Of a stretch of DNA of 59,295 nt, positions 18,858 through 28,339 are shown piece after piece. Position 1 is the first letter of the stretch. Every line of letters starts with the position of its first letter. Origin of the DNA: Thermodesulfobacteriota bacterium (GTDB lineage: Bacteria; Desulfobacterota_D; UBA1144; Nemesobacterales; CSP1-2); NCBI GenBank assembly GCA_035559815.1, contig DATMAT010000038.1, positions 1-59,295 of the forward strand. The letters run 5' to 3'. Both the position numbers and the translations under genes were made by a program. The notes beneath the pieces were generated by a model. That model ran no database searches. It had not been told where the DNA came from and saw nothing but the letters and a program-made list of their open reading frames with translations.

Positions 18858-20429
18858 CTACTCCCGCCAGGGTTTTCTGATCTTGATCCCGAACTTCGTT
18901 ATTTTGTAGTCAATCTGCCGGGGGGAGATTTCCAGTAGTGTAGCCGCGCGTGATTTGACCCAGCCGCATTTCTGGAGTGCTTCTATGATTCGCTGTTTTT
19001 CTATCTCTTCCACCGTCTTGGGAAGAGAGGAATTCTTAGTCTTAATTTCCTGCTGAAACGAAGGGGATTGATTGTCTACAACCCTATCGAATGCCCTTAT
19101 TTCATAGGGTAATTCATCTACCTCCACAATCTCTTCATCGGTCATGATCACCAGCCTCTCAATACTGTTTTCAAGCTGTCTTACGTTCCCCGGCCAGGGA
19201 TACTCGAGCATTAATTCCATTGCCTCGTCTGAAATTCTGGTCCTCTTCTTGTTTTCTTCGTTAAATTTTTTTAGAAAATATTCCACCAACACCGGTATAT
19301 CCTCCTTTCGTTCCCTGAGGGGCGGAAGAAATATCGGTATTACATTAAGCCGGTAGTAGAGGTCTTCTCGAAAACCTCCCTGGGCAACGGCCCTCTCCAA
19401 GTCCTGGTTCGTCGCGGCAATAATGCGCACATCCACGGAGATCGTTCTTGAGCTGCCTAGCCTTTCAAACTTCCTTTCCTGAAGAACGCGGAGGAGTTTC
19501 ATCTGAGTCGACACCGGGATATCCCCGATCTCGTCGAGGAAAATAGTTCCGCCATCGGCCAGCTCAAACCGGCCCTTGCGTTCATTTGTTGCCCCGGTAA
19601 ACGAGCCTTTTTCGTGTCCGAAAAGCTCGGATTCAAGAAGTGTTTCCGGAAGCGCCGTGCAATTAACTTTAATGAAAGGGCCTTTAGCCCTGCGGCTGTT
19701 ATAGTGGATAGCCCTGGCTATGAGCTCTTTGCCCGTCCCGCTTTCACCCCTTAGAAATACAGTGGCCTTTGTAGCAGCCACACGATGTACCGTCTCGTAT
19801 ATTTCTTTCATCCTATTACTTTGACCGACTACGTTTTCCAAACTATGCCTTACTTTCAGTTCACGTTGTAAACGGATTTTCTCTTCTATGAGCGTCTTCT
19901 TCTCCTTATCAACCATGCGACTAAGCTCCACCGCCTGGCCTATGAGGGAAGCAACCATAGTAAGAATCCTAACTCCACCTTCCATAGAAAAAGAGACCTT
20001 TCCTTGATAAAACACCACGCCAAGTGTCCCTAATACTTTATCCCCCGTTTTAATCGGGACGCATATAGATGAAATCCTCTGATTTTGGTCGAAGAGTTTA
20101 ATTTGCTTACTAAGCTCCAGTTCATCCCTAATATCGGGCAGGATCATAGGAGAACCGGTTTTATAGACTTTTCCTATAATTCCCTCTCCTGCCTTATAAA
20201 CTCTTAGCCTTCTCTCCTCTTCCGCGATTCCGAGGGCAACAAACGTAGAAAGCTCCCCTGTATCCCGGTTGTAAAATACAACTGTGCCGTATTTCATATC
20301 CAAAAATTTGTCAAGAATATTCATCACCGAATCGAGGGATTTTTTAAGGTCTAGCGTAGATGTAAGAACCTTGCTTACCTCGTAAATAGTGGTAAGCTCC
20401 AAAACCTTTGTATCCACTTCTACCATCAT
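18858..20429 (-). CDS. GAF-domain sigma-54 activator (NifA-like)
   Basis: This 523-residue regulator has the NifA/FhlA plan. An N-terminal GAF domain (about residues 20-170) may sense a small molecule. A sigma-54 AAA+ domain (about 200-435) has Walker A GESGTGKE, an intact [15 protein letters not shown] loop and [13 protein letters not shown]-terminal Fis-type HTH (about 480-520, '[18 protein letters not shown]') binds DNA. Unlike the other activator in this window, its GSFTGA loop is canonical, so it should be fully able to open sigma-54 promoters. Targets could include the cupin, narK and nitrite reductase promoters; this is inference. Two adjacent ATGs lie at the start; the binding site is weak. 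Confidence 0.88.
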
Positions 20430-20712: not shown

Positions 20713-21480
20713 CTAAAGTCTTATCTCCATCCCATCTTCCAGCACGGTTAGGGGTGATTCTTTGGATAAACTTTTTAACTCTTTGACCAGCTCTTTTTTA
20801 TAAAGGGGCTTAACATGGGAGATATATACTTTCACGTCATTCCGATTCAACTTTTTTATCTCATCGTGAAGCAGTCTTGGGGTGAGATGCCCGGTTATCC
20901 TGGCTACCTCTTCCAGTGAATTGGGAAAAGAGGTTTCTATTATCACCGCACGCAGTCTCTCGCTTCTTTGAACATTCTGCCAGAATGAATCGGTAATATA
21001 GGTATCACCGGTAAACGCAAAAGCCTTTTTCCCGTCGTCTATCAGATAGCCTACGGTAGGGATGGTGTGATTTACCGGAATGGGCATAACGCTATACCCT
21101 CCGATCGTCTTCTTTTGAAACGGGTCCAAGGTCTTATAGGTAAGTTTCGACTCTTTCAAATTAGGAATCTTGGAGAAGTTCGGCCAAATATGCCCATTCA
21201 ATATATGGGAGGATATGCTATCGATAGTTTCTTTTATGCCATAAACGTTCACCGGCGCGGTTCTCAAATCAAAGGTCAGCTCCGCCAGAAAAGGCAGGTC
21301 GCCAATATGGTCGATATGTGAATGAGTAATCAGTATGTTGTCTATTCGAGCACAATCTTTCGAGTCGAGTACCTCTGTAACCGAGCCGCAGTCAAGAAGC
21401 AGTTTGTCATCAACCAGGAATGCCGTGGGTCTTGAACTTATTCCTCTGCTCCCTCCACAACCTAGAACGAAAATTCTCAA
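20713..21480 (-). CDS. Metallo-beta-lactamase-fold phosphodiesterase, class II cAMP phosphodiesterase-like
   Basis: This 255-residue cytoplasmic protein starts MRIFVLGCGGSRG and carries the zinc motif 'THSHIDHIGDLPFL' (about residues 51-64), a later 'PVNHTIPTVGYLI', 'FTGDTYI' and 'ISHVKPLY'. This arrangement fits class II (PDE1/CpdP-type) 3',5'-cyclic-nucleotide phosphodiesterases, which share the fold with RNase Z. Being the last gene of an operon that begins with an adenylate cyclase strongly favours cAMP as substrate. The gap to the upstream channel gene is 9 bp. Alternative: a general MBL hydrolase or RNase Z relative. Confidence 0.8.
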   Translation of the reverse strand: MRIFVLGCGGSRGISSRPTAFLVDDKLLLDCGSVTEVLDSKDCARIDNILITHSHIDHIGDLPFLAELTFDLRTAPVNVYGIKETIDSISSHILNGHIWPNFSKIPNLKESKLTYKTLDPFQKKTIGGYSVMPIPVNHTIPTVGYLIDDGKKAFAFTGDTYITDSFWQNVQRSERLRAVIIETSFPNSLEEVARITGHLTPRLLHDEIKKLNRNDVKVYISHVKPLYKKELVKELKSLSKESPLTVLEDGMEIRL

Positions 21481-21489
21481 ATGACGCTC

Positions 21490-23028
21490 CTATAGCCCGA
21501 AGAAGGTCCTCATGCTCTGCAAGAATCGCGATGCATATCGATTGCGTATTGCCTGAACCTCTTCCGCTTTCTTCTCTTCCTTGAAAAATCCCTCGTTCAC
21601 GAGCTGTCTTTCTGCCAGGCGTTTACTTAGGTCTTCCAGTATACCCGGATTCTCCTCTAGTATCGGGACTAGATTTTTCTTCTCTATCTCTATTACCTCC
21701 ATGTCGGTCTCGGCAATCACGGTGGCTCCCCTTGGCTCCCCGGTGAGGAGGGACTTCTCACCAAAAAAGTCCCCTTCCTGAAGATTTCCTACAACTATCT
21801 CCCGGCCGTTGTCCGAAGTCTTCACGTGAACGCTGGCACTTCCCTGAAGAATGAGGAATAAAGAGTTCCCGAATTCACCCTGCTTGACTATACGCTCACC
21901 CTTTCCGAAAGACCAGTTACGGCCGGAGACGGCCAAGGTCTTAAGATACCTTTCATCAAGTGGGTCGAATATGCTAACGCGGCGAAGGAACCCCTCTATC
22001 CTGGCCCGATTCATCTCCTCGACCAGCTCCTTTTTATCCGCCGCCTCGTGTATAAACACATCCCTTATCGGGAAAGGAATCCTGATGCCCTTTCGCCTGA
22101 AGTTATACCAGATGCGGGTCATCACTTCATCCTGAATATTCTGGTACGAGGCATGGTCCTCGATGAAGAACTTGAGGTCATAGGTTATGGCAAAATCTCC
22201 AAAGTTTATCAGCCGGGATATAGGCCTGGGTACGGCCAGAACTCCCGCACTCTCCAGAGCGCATGATATAAGGGTCTCCTTTACCAAGGTGGGAGGGGCG
22301 CCGTATTCGACACCCACTTGTAGAAGAAGGGCGTGCAGCTTCGACGGCTTGTAGAAATTAATCAACTGCTCCTTCGAGATGATGCTATTAGGAACAACCA
22401 GGTAATTGTTGGCCAGCGTCCGAAGGGTGGTAGCACGCCAGTTTATATCCACTACCTCCCCTTCCTTGTCTCCGAGCATAACCCAGTCCCCAACTTGAAA
22501 GGGCGGCTCTATGCTAATGGTGATGCCGGCGATTAAACCGCCAAGAAAATCCTGAAGGGCAAAAACGAGTATCCCCGCAGTGACGCTAGAAGCAACGAGA
22601 AGACCGGAAAGCTCTTTGCCGAAGACAAAGTGAGCAATTAGCATTATGGTGGCGATTAGGATTATTACCGTAGCAACACTCCGGAGTAGCCCCGGCACCT
22701 GTGCCTTCCGGTGTTCATGGATGTAAAAGTCCCAGAGGAAAGTGGAGAAAACCCTGGCCGCAAACCACACGCCGAAGAAGACCACCATAGCTGTGCCCCA
22801 TTTGAGGATTAGACCCAGGTCCTTAGTCTTGAATAAACCGTAATCGTTGTGGAACGAGGCCCAAACCCAAACGGTGGCGAAGAGAGAGAAAAGGTAATAG
22901 AAAATTCCCAAGCTAATTCTGAAACGGCTCCAGAGAATCCAGCCGATTAAGAGAAGAACAACGAAAACAAATAGACTAATCAGTGAAGAGGCTAATATGG
23001 GTGACTGCTCGAACCAGGCGGTGATCAT
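21490..23028 (-). CDS. MscS-family channel with cyclic-nucleotide-binding domain
   Basis: The 512 residues start with four or five membrane helices (about 1-170). The MscS pore helix and beta domain follow: 'GILVFALQDFLGGLIAGI' and 'FQVGDWVMLGDKEGEVVDIN' (about 165-215). The C-terminal CNBD (about 355-475) has the phosphate-binding cassette 'GDFFGEKSLLTGEPRGATV' with its Glu and Arg. This is the plan of bacterial cyclic-nucleotide-gated (bCNG) channels of the MscS superfamily. It should respond to cAMP in the inner membrane; ion selectivity is unknown. It sits directly between a protease gene (12 bp) and the phosphodiesterase gene (9 bp). Confidence 0.88.
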   Translation of the reverse strand: MITAWFEQSPILASSLISLFVFVVLLLIGWILWSRFRISLGIFYYLFSLFATVWVWASFHNDYGLFKTKDLGLILKWGTAMVVFFGVWFAARVFSTFLWDFYIHEHRKAQVPGLLRSVATVIILIATIMLIAHFVFGKELSGLLVASSVTAGILVFALQDFLGGLIAGITISIEPPFQVGDWVMLGDKEGEVVDINWRATTLRTLANNYLVVPNSIISKEQLINFYKPSKLHALLLQVGVEYGAPPTLVKETLISCALESAGVLAVPRPISRLINFGDFAITYDLKFFIEDHASYQNIQDEVMTRIWYNFRRKGIRIPFPIRDVFIHEAADKKELVEEMNRARIEGFLRRVSIFDPLDERYLKTLAVSGRNWSFGKGERIVKQGEFGNSLFLILQGSASVHVKTSDNGREIVVGNLQEGDFFGEKSLLTGEPRGATVIAETDMEVIEIEKKNLVPILEENPGILEDLSKRLAERQLVNEGFFKEEKKAEEVQAIRNRYASRFLQSMRTFFGL

Positions 23029-23040
23029 GGGGTGTTATTT

Positions 23041-23883
23041 TTACAAAGCCTTCTTGAATCTCTTCGCCCTTAACTGAACAAGAGATTGGTCAAATTGGTC
23101 GGACGGCAGCTCTTTTTCAACCCTGGCTATTCTTTCAGAAGTGGCCGGATGGGTTTTCATTATACCCCCGGTCGATCCCTGCCCCTGACTTTGCAGACGG
23201 ACTAGGAAGTTCTTCAATGCGTAAGGGTCATATCCGGCTCTCTTTAGATAAGTAATTGCATCTTCATCGGCTCTATACTCCTGGGTCTTGCTATAACCAT
23301 TGACCACCAATGTCTTGAATACGTCGTCTATAGAACCCTCGAAGGCTGTCACCAGTTGTGATAGTTCCGCAGGTGTATATCTCTGAGCCGCCTCTTTACC
23401 GATCAGGGTAGCAACTTCGGTCAGACGAGCCTTCTGTATAGCCGAGACGCCGTCCCGGTTGTTTATATGCGCAACCTCATGAGCCAAGACTGCCGCCAGT
23501 TCGTCTTCATTCTGCGTTGCGTAGAGCATGCCCTTTGTTATCAATATAATCCCACCGGGACAAGCAAATGCGTTTATCTCTTCTGAATTAAGAACAGCAA
23601 AGTGATATCCGCCGTATGTATATGGCTCATCCGAGTTCACCGCCACCGTGTTTCCCACCAGATTGACATATTCAGTGAGTTTTCTATCCTCCAAAAGGGA
23701 ATATGTCGAAAGTATCCTCGCCGCCACCGCGCGTCCCACATAATATTCCTCTTCATCGGAAAGGGGCGTGGCCGCCTGGAATGTCTGTTGCACTACTCTG
23801 GTAACACTGCCTATATCCATGCCGGAACATGCAATCAGCGAGACTAGGATTATCCCTGCAAGTAAAGCTAGTGGCGTTTTCAT
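23041..23883 (-). CDS. M48-family metalloprotease lipoprotein
   Basis: The 280 residues begin with a lipoprotein signal (hydrophobic stretch then LIACSG; Cys near residue 19). The zinc motif 'VLAHEVAHINNRDG' (HEXXH) and the later 'EYRADEDAITYLKRAGYDP' glutamate ligand region are intact, and the C-terminus has 'THPATSERIARVEKEL', typical of BepA/LoiP-like M48 peptidases. It would act in the periplasm on envelope proteins. It overlaps the upstream SH3 gene by 4 bp (ATGA), so translation is probably coupled. Why a protease belongs to this cyclic-nucleotide operon is not known. Confidence 0.88.
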   Translation of the reverse strand: MKTPLALLAGIILVSLIACSGMDIGSVTRVVQQTFQAATPLSDEEEYYVGRAVAARILSTYSLLEDRKLTEYVNLVGNTVAVNSDEPYTYGGYHFAVLNSEEINAFACPGGIILITKGMLYATQNEDELAAVLAHEVAHINNRDGVSAIQKARLTEVATLIGKEAAQRYTPAELSQLVTAFEGSIDDVFKTLVVNGYSKTQEYRADEDAITYLKRAGYDPYALKNFLVRLQSQGQGSTGGIMKTHPATSERIARVEKELPSDQFDQSLVQLRAKRFKKAL

Positions 23884-24341
23884 GGAGGAGTCAGTCTCCC
23901 AGTTTGTATGAATTGCAAGACCTGTTTATCGGAAACGGTGTAGCCCTCCACCCGGTTAACCGCCGTATAATTCAGTCCGGGATTGCTCCTTTTGTATGCT
24001 GATTCAACCTGAGGATTGAATCCCTTGCCGGCCAATGCCACCTCTCCGCCCGATGCAGACTGACCCTGAGACCCGGTAATTTTGCTGAGGGTAAATGACT
24101 TTTTATCGACCGCACTCTTGTGAATGCACCCCGGAAGCCCATTAAACCTAACCTGATACCAGTCACCCTGCTTGGACGTAACTTCTAGGACATCATTGTA
24201 GTAAACCATGGCCTTGACCGGAGCGAAGAACTGGCAGGAAGTCCTTATAGCGTTCTGCTTTGTGATGACTGTCAATGTTTCGGCATGGGAGGAAACAGAG
24301 GCGGAAGCCAGTATAAGAAAGCCTATGAGGTATAGTTTCAT
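23880..24341 (-). CDS. Secreted SH3-domain protein
   Basis: This 153-residue protein has a clear signal peptide (MKLYLIGFLILASASVSSHAE). A bacterial SH3-like fold follows (about residues 25-75; 'AIRTSCQFFAPVKAMVYYND', 'GDWYQVRFNG'). The conserved-looking tail 'YTAVNRVEGYTVSDKQVLQF' ends the protein. SH3-like domains of this type bind peptidoglycan or periplasmic partners. The gene starts 1 bp after the cyclase stop and overlaps the protease start by 4 bp. It may link envelope state to the cyclase's periplasmic CHASE2 domain; this is inference. Confidence 0.75.
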   Translation of the reverse strand: MKLYLIGFLILASASVSSHAETLTVITKQNAIRTSCQFFAPVKAMVYYNDVLEVTSKQGDWYQVRFNGLPGCIHKSAVDKKSFTLSKITGSQGQSASGGEVALAGKGFNPQVESAYKRSNPGLNYTAVNRVEGYTVSDKQVLQFIQTGRLTPP

Positions 24342-24342
24342 G

Positions 24343-26451
24343 CTATTTCTCAGTAAACTTTATAACATCCCAGTCCTCTGTCAAGTGGGGGTTAGATATC
24401 ATGTATTCACACCTTCTCTTGTAAAATTGGGCGGGCCCGTCTTCCGGGTATTGCCTGAGTAAACCCTCGAATACCTGAGCCGCTTCCGGCCATTTCTTAT
24501 CCTTATAAAGCGACATACCCTGCTGGAAGACGCTCAAAAGCCCCTGTCTCTCCGATTCTATATTCCCTTTCTCACCGACCAGTTCGTATATTTTTACCGG
24601 TAACTGCTTTCCCTTTACCGCTATCGAGCCTAGCTCCCTTTTATAAAAAATATCGTCTGTCCCGATAATAGTATTCTCGCTCACTATTATGCTGGTCTTG
24701 AAAAACTTATTAGCCGATTCCAGCCTGGATGCCAGATTTACCGTATCACCGATGACCGTGTAATGGAATAATCTATCGCTTCCAATATTTCCGGCAATAG
24801 CTTCGCCGGTATGTATCCCTATCCTGACCTTTAACCCGGAGAATCCATCTGCACGGAGACCCTCGTTGATTTCATCGAGAGCCTTAAGGCACTGAAGGGC
24901 AGAGAGGCAGGCGTTTACCTCGTCCTTGTCCGTATCGAACGGTGCACCCCAGAATGCCATGACCGAGTCCCCGATATATTTGTCTATCACCCCCTGATTT
25001 CCTATCAGCACCTCGGTCAGAGAATTCAATACCGAATGCAGTATAACTGCTACCTTCTCCGCGGACGTAACCTCGGCAAACGAGGTGAACCCGGCCAGGT
25101 CGGCAAAAAATACGGTGACACGTCTTACCTGCCCGCCCGGTTTTATGAGAGATGGGTTTTCTATGATGTAATCGGCAATCTTCTTGTCCATATACTGGGA
25201 GAAAGTCGCCCTAAGGAAAAGCCTCTGTCTACCCTCGGTAGCATAGCTATACGCAACCGACACCAGAAAACTGAGTATCAGGGAAGTAATAGGCGGAATG
25301 ATATCCATGTAAACGGATTCCCTGAATAGGATTGCCAGGATTATAAGCACTACCACCAGGGATGCTATAAACAGTGAAAGATTTTTAAGAAGGGAATAAC
25401 TCCTCAAGACGGAATAGCTGATAAAAAACGAGATCAGCAACATAAAAGCGAGCACAAAAATTCCATTTAAGGGGCTTACAAAATTACTACTGACAATATT
25501 ATCAAGAGTGGTTGCATGAATCAGCACACCGGTTGACACCGAAGAGGTCGCCGTCGGCTTTAGGTCGTATAAACCAGCCGCTGTGAGCCCTAGGAATACG
25601 ATTTTCCCCCTGAAAAACTCCTTTTTAATCCCCGGGTCTTCAGATGCGGCGCTTCTTAGATATGAGCTCAGTATCTGGGAGGCCGAGAAAACCTGGAAGG
25701 GATTTCTATCCCTATAGTATCTGAGCATAAGCGTACCATCGGTTAACGGTACCTTTGTTTCATCAACAAAAACGGAATTTTGTTCTATTTTGACCCTAGC
25801 CTGCTTTATGATATGACTCAATACAAAATTGGGGATGACGTATTCTTTTAACCCGAATAAAAGTGGAACTCTTCTATAAACCCCGTCCTTGTCCGGAGAG
25901 ATGGTGACGTTTCCCGCTCCGGCAACAGAGCTTTTAAAAACGTCTAGAGGAGTAATAACGGAGTTGTACGCCCAAATAGGCCAGGTTACGTTCCTCACCG
26001 ATATGGATTTGATAAAATCCTCATCAGTTGGGCTCATAATCTCCTCTTTCTGAGATAGGAAAACGGGCAGATAAACGTTCGAGGCTTTTTTCATGGCCTC
26101 TGCCAGGATCCTGTCGTCTTCCTCGCCGTATGATGAAGGTTCGGTAAACAGAATGTCTATGAATAGGGCATCCGCCTGGGATACATACTCTATTATCGGG
26201 GCGTAGACCTGCCTGGGCCAGGGCCAATTAATGCCCTGTTCGCTCAAAGCATCGATACTCTCCTGGTCAACCTCGACGATGACTATTTTTTCAGAGTAAG
26301 GCCTTGATGGATTGAGCTGTCTTGAGAACAGGTCGTAAGCCTGAAACTCAAATTCCCTCAGAACGCCGGAAAGAAAGATTAGGAGGGAAAGAATAAAAGA
26401 GGAGATGGAAAGTACTACTATTTTTGTAACTTGACGATTTAATAAGCTAAT
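24343..26451 (-). CDS. CHASE2-domain adenylate cyclase with probable AUU start
   Basis: The open frame runs up to a stop at 26476. An ATG/GTG/TTG start is found only at 26247 (TTG), inside the CHASE2 domain. Upstream in frame are a first membrane helix ('VVLSISSFILSLLIFLSGVL') and the CHASE2 opening 'EKIVIVEVDQESI', so the true start is probably ATT at 26451, 7 nt after AGGAA, giving 702 residues. Order: helix 1, periplasmic CHASE2, three membrane helices (about 325-410), class III cyclase (FFADLAGFTSF, DKYIGDSVMAFWG, YTVIGDTVNLASRLE), and a helical tail. Lys and Thr at the purine-specifying positions favour ATP. First gene of a five-gene operon. Confidence 0.87.
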   Translation of the reverse strand: MSLLNRQVTKIVVLSISSFILSLLIFLSGVLREFEFQAYDLFSRQLNPSRPYSEKIVIVEVDQESIDALSEQGINWPWPRQVYAPIIEYVSQADALFIDILFTEPSSYGEEDDRILAEAMKKASNVYLPVFLSQKEEIMSPTDEDFIKSISVRNVTWPIWAYNSVITPLDVFKSSVAGAGNVTISPDKDGVYRRVPLLFGLKEYVIPNFVLSHIIKQARVKIEQNSVFVDETKVPLTDGTLMLRYYRDRNPFQVFSASQILSSYLRSAASEDPGIKKEFFRGKIVFLGLTAAGLYDLKPTATSSVSTGVLIHATTLDNIVSSNFVSPLNGIFVLAFMLLISFFISYSVLRSYSLLKNLSLFIASLVVVLIILAILFRESVYMDIIPPITSLILSFLVSVAYSYATEGRQRLFLRATFSQYMDKKIADYIIENPSLIKPGGQVRRVTVFFADLAGFTSFAEVTSAEKVAVILHSVLNSLTEVLIGNQGVIDKYIGDSVMAFWGAPFDTDKDEVNACLSALQCLKALDEINEGLRADGFSGLKVRIGIHTGEAIAGNIGSDRLFHYTVIGDTVNLASRLESANKFFKTSIIVSENTIIGTDDIFYKRELGSIAVKGKQLPVKIYELVGEKGNIESERQGLLSVFQQGMSLYKDKKWPEAAQVFEGLLRQYPEDGPAQFYKRRCEYMISNPHLTEDWDVIKFTEK

Positions 26452-26458
26452 ATCAGCG

Positions 26459-26463
26459 TTCCT
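26459..26463 (-). promoter_or_regulatory. Ribosome binding site deciding an AUU start
   Basis: On the minus strand AGGAA lies 7 nt before ATT (26451-26449). No ATG, GTG or TTG exists between the upstream stop and residue 69 of the extended protein. AUU starts are known for infC; use here would lower and condition translation. Confidence 0.5.
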
Positions 26464-26652: not shown

Positions 26653-27285
26653 CTAAGGTTTTGTAACCTTCAAGTCGGAAAATTCCCAGACATTTTTGTT
26701 TTGTGCATTTGCGGGCGAATTTCCAGTTAAACCTACAAAACTCCCACCCTGTGGTGGTTGCCCTTTGAAGGTAACAACTTCTATATCATTAATGTAAACT
26801 TTTGCTTCGTTTCCCTTTGTCACCACCCTTAGTTGATTAACCTCACCTAAACCTTTTTTAAGTGCGCTATTCTGACGCCACGATACCGGTTCTAAAACAC
26901 GCTTATTTGTCCAACGTTTGACTGTATACCAACCGTCACCGGTAACCAAGAGGTAATAGTAATCATCGTAGCCCTTCGCCCAGAATATGAGCCCGCCGCC
27001 ATAGTTTGGGTCGTCGCTCTTGGTAAGACTTACATTAACACAAGCATCCATGTCCTCAAAAATGTTGGCTTGGTTAATAATGGGATAACTGGTATTCACG
27101 TCTGGCTGAATGACCAGTTTTCCATTGGCTACGTTCAAGTTTGCATTTGCCTCACCCCAGGCCGGGTCCAGAGACGTAAAATTATCCTCGTAAAAAACTT
27201 CACTACCCTTACAGGCTAAAACGTTTTTGGCTAAAGATAAAACGGTTAGACCAACCAGCACGACTAGAACAATTTTAGTTTTCAT
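26653..27285 (-). CDS. Secreted lectin/LamG-like (DUF1080-type) protein, copy 1
   Basis: This 210-residue protein has a signal peptide ending near VLACKG. The rest is a jelly-roll domain with 'YEDNFTSLDPAWGEA', 'GGGLIFWAKGYDDYYYLLV', 'LRVVTKGNEAKVYINDIEVV' and 'VGLTGNSPANAQ'. This pattern fits concanavalin-like domains such as LamG or the DUF1080/GH16-related family, often carbohydrate-binding. TAAAGGAGG precedes the ATG. It is a close relative of the next gene (26653 and 27370 copies form a tandem pair, same strand, 84 bp apart). Ligand and catalytic activity are unknown. Confidence 0.72.
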   Translation of the reverse strand: MKTKIVLVVLVGLTVLSLAKNVLACKGSEVFYEDNFTSLDPAWGEANANLNVANGKLVIQPDVNTSYPIINQANIFEDMDACVNVSLTKSDDPNYGGGLIFWAKGYDDYYYLLVTGDGWYTVKRWTNKRVLEPVSWRQNSALKKGLGEVNQLRVVTKGNEAKVYINDIEVVTFKGQPPQGGSFVGLTGNSPANAQNKNVWEFSDLKVTKP

Positions 27286-27369: not shown

Positions 27370-28041
27370 CTATTGGCCTGGGTAGCTGCCCGAGCCGGGA
27401 GAAGCACCGGAACCCGTGGCAGCCGCATCTGGCTTTGTTACCTTCAACTCGGAAAATTCCCAGACTGACGGGGCGTTGCCAATTACCCCGATAAATCCAC
27501 CACCCTGGGGTGGTTGGCCTTTGAAGCTAACTACCTGAGTGTCGTTTATATAAACTGTAGCTTCATTCCCCTTGGTCACAACGCGGAGTTGATTGGTCTG
27601 GCCCACGCCCTTTTTTAGAGCGGCATTCTGGCGCCACGGCACCGGGTCCAGGGCTCGCCCGTTTGTCCAGCGTCTGACTGCATACCAGCCGTCGCCATTT
27701 ATAAGCAAGTAATAATAATCATCGTATCCCTTGGCCCAAAAGATAAGACCACCTCCCCAACTTACGTCGTCGCTCTTGGCTATGGTCACATTTATGCAGG
27801 CATCCATGTCCTCGAAGATATTAGCCTGGTTTATTGCACTCCATAACTTATCCGCCTCGGGTTGAATGACAAGCTTTCCATCTTTTACACTCTGCTTATT
27901 GCTTGGTTCACCCCATGCTGGGTCCATAGTAGCAAAGTTATCTTCATAAAGGACCTCACTTCCCTTACAAGCCAAGACATCCCCGGAAGTAAACAAAAAA
28001 ACCATTGCAACAACTGCTAAAACACCTATCATCCACCTCAT
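27370..28041 (-). CDS. Secreted lectin/LamG-like (DUF1080-type) protein, copy 2
   Basis: The product has 223 residues, a signal peptide ending VLACKG, and the same domain as the downstream copy. Most of the core is shared ('INQANIFEDMDAC', 'GGGLIFWAKGYDDYYYLL', 'QLRVVTKGNEA'). It differs by a Gly/Ser/Pro-rich tail ('GSGASPGSGSYPGQ') that may be a flexible linker or surface tether. CTAAGGAGG precedes the ATG at 28041. The pair clearly arose by tandem duplication, and differences concentrate in the N-terminal third and tail. Function unknown; binding of a sugar or polymer at the cell surface is the likeliest role. Confidence 0.72.
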   Translation of the reverse strand: MRWMIGVLAVVAMVFLFTSGDVLACKGSEVLYEDNFATMDPAWGEPSNKQSVKDGKLVIQPEADKLWSAINQANIFEDMDACINVTIAKSDDVSWGGGLIFWAKGYDDYYYLLINGDGWYAVRRWTNGRALDPVPWRQNAALKKGVGQTNQLRVVTKGNEATVYINDTQVVSFKGQPPQGGGFIGVIGNAPSVWEFSELKVTKPDAAATGSGASPGSGSYPGQ

Positions 28042-28339
28042 GATCTACCCTCCTTAGTTATTTAGTTATTTTTTACATGAAAAATTTGGGGAGGCAGAAA
28101 AATGCTATTCATATACATATAGTATGTCTATTAAATAATGTAATTTAAGATAGTTAGGCAAATTATATAACCGCCGCTCATTCCATGTCAAGCATTTGTA
28201 TATTCAGTAAATATGAGGCTAGGAAAGACAATGAGGATAGAAAAGATTCATGCATAAAATGAGTTTAACTTGAATCCCAATGCTAAAATGATAAAATGGT
28301 GCGAAGTTTTAAATTTCTTTCTTAAAGGAGGAAGAAATC

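Follow-up and report, generated by a model that had tools for sequence, protein, structure and literature searches.

A putative envelope-responsive cAMP circuit: a conserved CHASE2 cyclase–SH3–M48 core recurrently linked to an MscS-type channel and a phosphodiesterase

Cyclic nucleotide control of ion flux is familiar in animals; bacterial cAMP is known mostly as a transcription-factor ligand. We know of no settled account of how MscS-type channels carrying a CNBD are supplied with ligand, and the adjacent channel and cyclase genes Rv2434c–Rv2435c of Mycobacterium tuberculosis are a possible precedent. Channels of the bCNG type are members of the MscS superfamily with a CNBD (Caldwell 2010 and Malcolm 2012, as cited in PMC4560390). 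The predicted channel described here resembles them in its MscS pore and beta domain and in the CNBD at its C-terminus, which includes a binding cassette, but it is encoded together with a cyclase, a phosphodiesterase (PDE) and an envelope-facing SH3/M48 pair. The CHASE2 adenylate cyclases CyaD1, CyaD2 and CyaK of Sinorhizobium meliloti receive input via the outer-membrane protein NsrA and give output via Clr (PMC13001267). They too join a CHASE2 sensor to a class III cyclase, with input through an envelope partner, but the candidate output of the present operon is a channel in place of Clr, and its partners are an SH3 and an M48 protein. The yeast enzyme PDE1, Rv1339 and CpdA of C. glutamicum (PMC9293780) share with the predicted PDE of the operon the metallo-beta-lactamase (MBL) fold, the [T/S]HxHxDH motif and membership of PF02112 or PF12706, and differ from it in that the latter shares its operon with both a cyclase and a channel carrying a CNBD. 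The literature searched contained no description of a CHASE2/M48/SH3 operon or of a cyclase/channel operon.

The window, that is, the whole stretch of 59,295 nucleotides analysed, carries five near-contiguous minus-strand genes at 20713–26451, with spacings of 1, −4, 12 and 9 bp (Table 1). The genome belongs with the Dadabacteria, the named loci nearest to it being those of Candidatus Dadabacteria CSP1-2 and comparable MAGs. The gene arrangement, the protein families and the motifs DKYIGDS, YTVIGDTVN and HSHIDH quoted in the initial annotation were all recovered, each domain scoring above its curated Pfam cut-off and the SH3 domain barely so.

Table 1. Position, strand and basis of assignment of the operon genes and their flanking features
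Feature	Position	Strand	Basis
CHASE2 + class III adenylate-type cyclase	24343..26451	−	Pfam, residues, TM estimate
Secreted SH3 protein, C-terminal helical AGKGF segment	23880..24341	−	SH3_3, 36-homolog alignment, structure model
M48 metalloprotease lipoprotein (LIAC, HEVAH)	23041..23883	−	Peptidase_M48; 4-bp overlap with SH3 gene
MscS-type channel + C-terminal CNBD (bCNG type)	21490..23028	−	Pfam, PDB relatives
CNBD of channel, phosphate-binding cassette FFGEKSLLTGEPRGAT, Glu424 + Arg433	21604..21996	−	Alignments
Class II-type cyclic nucleotide phosphodiesterase, THSHIDH, TTG start	20713..21480	−	PDEase_II; yeast PDE1 relative
GAF + sigma-54 activator, 283 bp downstream of operon	18858..20429	−	Pfam; synteny G005
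Secreted 3keto-disac_hyd/LamG-like protein, upstream of cyclase	26653..27285	−	Weak Pfam match
Paralog of the 26653..27285 LamG-like protein	27370..28041	−	Weak Pfam match

The cyclase combines both domains of a CHASE2 class III cyclase in one membrane protein (CHASE2, 167.9 bits; Guanylate_cyc, 89.6 bits). Counted from an ATT start, it is 702 amino acids long, with one estimated TM helix before CHASE2 and three after it, and with a weakly TPR-like C-terminus; its nearest solved relative is CyaB. It retains both metal-binding Asp residues, the Lys and Asp that specify adenine, and the transition-state residues Asn and Arg. Among 90 aligned CHASE2 cyclases, the four catalytic positions were invariant, and the adenine-type Lys and Asp were conserved in 86 and 84 sequences, respectively. 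Class III cyclases with such residues make cAMP, and CHASE2 is a periplasmic domain.

The gene end at 26451, as given by the initial annotation, is an ATT codon (26451–26449, minus strand) preceded by AGGA at 26463–26460, so that the two elements together span 26449..26463. No ATG, GTG or TTG was found in frame ahead of the first TM helix, and the nearest canonical codon, TTG at 26247, was rejected as a start because its use would delete that helix and the beginning of CHASE2. The aligned start position was ATG in none of seven Dadabacteria orthologs (the window, L060, L061, L071, L073, L220 and L221): the codon was ATT in the window, G009 and G003, ATA in G005 and G002, and ATC in G004 and G006. 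AGG was present at Shine-Dalgarno distance in six of the seven, compared with 18% of internal Ile codons in the same genes. An upstream TTG offers an alternative start in two of the seven, and most inspected orthologs outside Dadabacteria have an ATG close by. Since this comparison supports a non-AUG codon at the position, translation of the cyclase probably starts at ATT 26451. A weak non-AUG start is known from infC, and its apparent conservation here suggests that the cyclase may be kept scarce.

The channel matched MS_channel_2nd (69.7 bits), MS_channel_3rd (41.6 bits) and cNMP_binding (80.7 bits), and showed five hydropathy peaks with an MscS core. Its relatives in the PDB are MscK and MscS, and those nearest to its CNBD are PKG and PKA. 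The protein has the composition of a bCNG channel, MscS domains followed by a C-terminal CNBD, with E424 and R433 both present. CNBDs with this cassette bind cAMP, the Glu and Arg holding ribose and phosphate. The phosphate-binding Arg was found in all 19 cyclase-linked channels readable at that position, compared with 37 of 51 unlinked channels (p 0.008, uncorrected for relatedness). MscS-type channels with an N-terminal Peripla_BP_6 domain were also observed at L241 6057–9563 and L255 6330–9245 (G297), one of which additionally carries a C-terminal CNBD.

The MBL protein scored 70.8 bits with PDEase_II, threefold over the cut-off of 23.7, and 61.9 bits with Lactamase_B_2; among proteins of solved structure, yeast PDE1 is the closest to it. 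Membership of class II is indicated by PF02112 together with HxHxDH, although THSHIDH has Ile where the classical HxHLDH has Leu. Class II PDEs hydrolyse cAMP, but members of the CNBD and MBL families present in the operon need not all act on it. Across the loci, the same slot is filled by different PDE-type MBL subfamilies, three in all: PDEase_II proteins in Dadabacteria, a group within PF12706 with a THxHxDH motif that agrees with the definition of atypical class II PDEs made for Rv1339 (PMC9293780), and the Apyc1 family at locus L252. Apyc1 enzymes have broad cleavage activity on cyclic mononucleotides, with a preference for cAMP and cGMP in their relative YhfI (PMC9117128). The recruitment of different MBL subfamilies to one slot suggests selection for breaking down a cyclic mononucleotide. 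If the protein were instead another phosphoesterase, such as a relative of RNase Z or PhnP, the operon would hold a maker and a receiver with no dedicated off switch. The MBL fold by itself leaves the substrate unfixed, the predicted structure is poor (pLDDT 56), and the NCBIfam models of RNase Z and PhnP do match, all far under their cut-offs; set against the PDEase_II score, the kinship with PDE1, the three PDE-type subfamilies and the preference of YhfI, this makes a non-PDE activity improbable.

The PDE slot also yielded two minor observations. In G002 and G006 (L074 and L078), a class II PDE gene adjoins a second, divergent CHASE2 cyclase, and the operon itself is without the PDE. At L252 8129–12763 (G379), a CHASE2 cyclase, the Apyc1-family MBL protein and an MscS-CNBD channel stand in a row; here a bacterial Apyc1 homolog lies in what looks like a cAMP operon, outside the phage setting.

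The two remaining proteins face the envelope. The SH3 protein, which scored 27.1 bits with SH3_3 against a cut-off of 27, has a signal peptide and an SH3b domain, joined by a flexible linker to a helical end that carries AGKGF, invariant in a 36-homolog alignment. Its predicted structure (pLDDT 76) matched SH3b folds, and the helical AGKGF part of the model gave no confident fold match. The M48 protein (Peptidase_M48, 110.6 bits) carries HEVAH and the lipobox LIAC followed by Ser; by the usual sorting rule, Ser after the lipobox Cys suggests that this lipoprotein may reside in the outer membrane. The closest NCBIfam models were BepA and LoiP, and both assignments were rejected at 109.9 bits against 570 required and 62.7 against 365, respectively. 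Like the operon protein, BepA and LoiP are secreted and have the M48 fold, and LoiP is also a lipoprotein; the operon protein differs in lying far below both family cut-offs and in its link with a cyclase and an SH3 protein.

The co-occurrence of the five families, which had been proposed as a check on the initial annotation, was borne out both in close relatives and, in rearranged form, in distant phyla. G005 preserves the full set of five, with both gene order and flanking genes unchanged, and G002 and G006 have four of the five, those of G006 over separate contigs. G003 and G009 have cyclase–SH3–M48 and a convergent PDE gene without the channel, the PDE copy of G003 being N-terminally truncated and lacking HxHxDH. 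The five families were clustered in three gene orders across distant lineages, including SH3–M48–MscS–cyclase–MBL in G115 and SH3–M48–cyclase–MBL–MscS in L135 (Aminicenantes), L139 (labelled Clostridiales), L129/G390, G293 and G389. In G115 and G293, the sole class III cyclase of the genome sits in this cluster. No natural fusions among the five families were seen in the loci read. The recurrent joining of the same families in unrelated bacteria gives the operon the appearance of a real, self-contained signalling circuit. Two side observations belong here: the G115 channel gene (L065 8728–10232) is frameshifted inside the CNBD, the rest of which is open in another frame, reflecting either a sequencing error or decay; and in G012 (L069 274–2889), a stand-alone CNBD protein comes immediately after a CHASE2 cyclase, and the opposite strand carries, a few kb distant, a class II PDE and an MscS-CNBD channel.

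We scanned 84,980 species for AGKGF-type SH3 proteins by the single peptide pattern E[VI][AS][LI]AGKGF and obtained 359 loci, of which the best 80, those nearest to the query, were examined; many loci are MAG contigs, and individual taxon labels, such as that of L139, may be wrong. Among these best 80 of 359, an M48 gene adjoined the SH3 gene in every case, and a CHASE2 cyclase was present in 56 of the 59 loci with adequate flanks. The core loci include Nitrospirota, Thermodesulfobacteriota, Spirochaetota, Aminicenantes, Verrucomicrobiota and Pseudomonadota. A channel was found near the SH3 gene in 8, and an MBL protein likewise in 8, of the same best 80 of 359. In an unbiased clustering of neighbour ORFs, these two (8 and 7 loci, respectively) were among the commonest families after the three core genes; one larger neighbour family (12 loci) came mostly from related Nitrospirota. 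The conserved unit is the envelope-facing core of three genes, and the channel and PDE are recurrent add-ons. Within the core (L080–L159), the cyclase was observed either first or last in gene order.

The linkage of cyclase and channel was assessed separately in 387 genomes, 45 of which contained a channel of the MscS-CNBD type (47 loci at E <= 1e-60). At 8 of these 47 loci, a class III cyclase lay on the same strand within 6.5 kb of the channel, compared with 0.67 expected from the per-genome count of class III cyclases (approximately 12-fold; P ~1.5e-7), and P was ~4e-5 with related loci collapsed to six, the correction for relatedness being incomplete here as for the Arg retention. The linkage is not due to chance. 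It requires eight changes on the cyclase tree, at least six of them forced by supported (starred) branches, and seven on the channel tree, at least four of them so forced; both trees were built by a quick method and contain some long branches, and gain and loss are indistinguishable on them. On these trees, the coupling of cyclase and channel appears to have arisen several times separately. The two genes also adjoin each other without this SH3/M48 pair in G205, in G343 and at four loci of one class, that of G379, which looks cyanobacterial.

The initial annotation had read the operon as a full circuit that makes, senses and destroys cAMP. The recurrent cyclase–channel linkage and the intact residues support this in part, but the unit that is conserved proved to be CHASE2 cyclase, SH3 and M48; as most core loci are without channel and PDE, the channel is one recurrent output and not the defining one. 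The same loci are what would be expected if the functional unit were the core only, feeding a general cAMP pool and CRP-like regulators, with the channel and PDE as co-expressed envelope or osmotic stress genes. The S. meliloti CHASE2 cyclases do work via the CRP-type regulator Clr (PMC13001267), and the window genome and most tested relatives encode extra CNBD proteins, some of them CRP-like in size; in the window's genome, this further cAMP machinery amounts to eight class III cyclases and six CNBD matches. Against a general pool stand a channel linkage at about 12 times expectation with several origins, the cAMP-contacting Arg in all linked channels, and cyclase–channel adjacency without SH3/M48 in G205, G343 and the probable cyanobacteria; we regard this alternative as unlikely, although worth keeping in mind. 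A linkage that is not due to chance, together with the Arg kept in linked channels, makes a cAMP circuit the best explanation. We therefore favour, with somewhat more confidence than doubt, a self-contained envelope-responsive cAMP circuit that would run from cyclase to channel and be reset by the PDE. As to its history and output, the chances seem evenly balanced that the core has repeatedly taken up a PDE and a cAMP-gated channel of the MscS type, and that the resulting one-operon circuit would act directly on ion flux and not on transcription.

A cyclase combined with a CNBD membrane effector is also the logic of Pycsar anti-phage defence, in which infection would raise a cyclic mononucleotide and the CNBD channel would kill the cell. 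PADLOC gave weak-to-moderate matches to PycC and Pycsar effectors, and the cyanobacterial-type locus L252 holds an Apyc1-family protein, Apyc1 being described from phages (PMC9117128). The PADLOC matches did not, however, extend beyond the cyclase and CNBD domains that both systems share, and no defence genes were found among the neighbours examined. Pycsar pairs a PycC-type pyrimidine cyclase with its effector, whereas the operon encodes a CHASE2 membrane cyclase with adenine-type residues, an MscS pore, periplasmic partners and a predicted PDE of its own; assignment to Pycsar was therefore rejected, and a defence role appears highly improbable.

In the favoured cAMP circuit, the CHASE2 cyclase in the inner membrane would read a periplasmic state set together with the SH3 and M48 proteins, the former probably contacting peptidoglycan or envelope proteins. 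The active cyclase, probably kept scarce by its AUU-type start, would produce cAMP at the membrane; cAMP bound to the CNBD would alter opening of the MscS-type channel, in either direction, and hence the flux of ions or osmolytes, until the class II-type PDE hydrolysed the cAMP and reset the channel. Gene content, intact motifs and a conserved, repeatedly evolved linkage are what the sequences show, whereas cAMP as the ligand, the direction of gating, the part of SH3/M48 in CHASE2 input and the scarcity of the cyclase are what we infer. If this scheme is correct, the core with channel and PDE would be the setting in which at least some bCNG channels naturally signal. An operon with a maker, a receiver and a destroyer of cAMP would be a compact, testable unit, and the widespread CHASE2 cyclase–SH3–M48 core may report on the outer envelope.

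Finally, we considered the flanks of the operon. Scanning the window for Rfam families and tRNAs gave zero matches. The GAF + sigma-54 activator gene stays beside the operon in G005 and is perhaps independent of it. On the other side, a homolog of the 3keto-disac_hyd/LamG-like gene adjoins the cyclase in both G005 and G002, and its paralog may be the gene that opens the transcription unit. A perfect match to the sigma-70 consensus (TTGACA, 18 bp, TATAAT) is located at 28191–28162 on the minus strand, before both LamG-like genes, so a transcript may start there and cross these genes into the operon.
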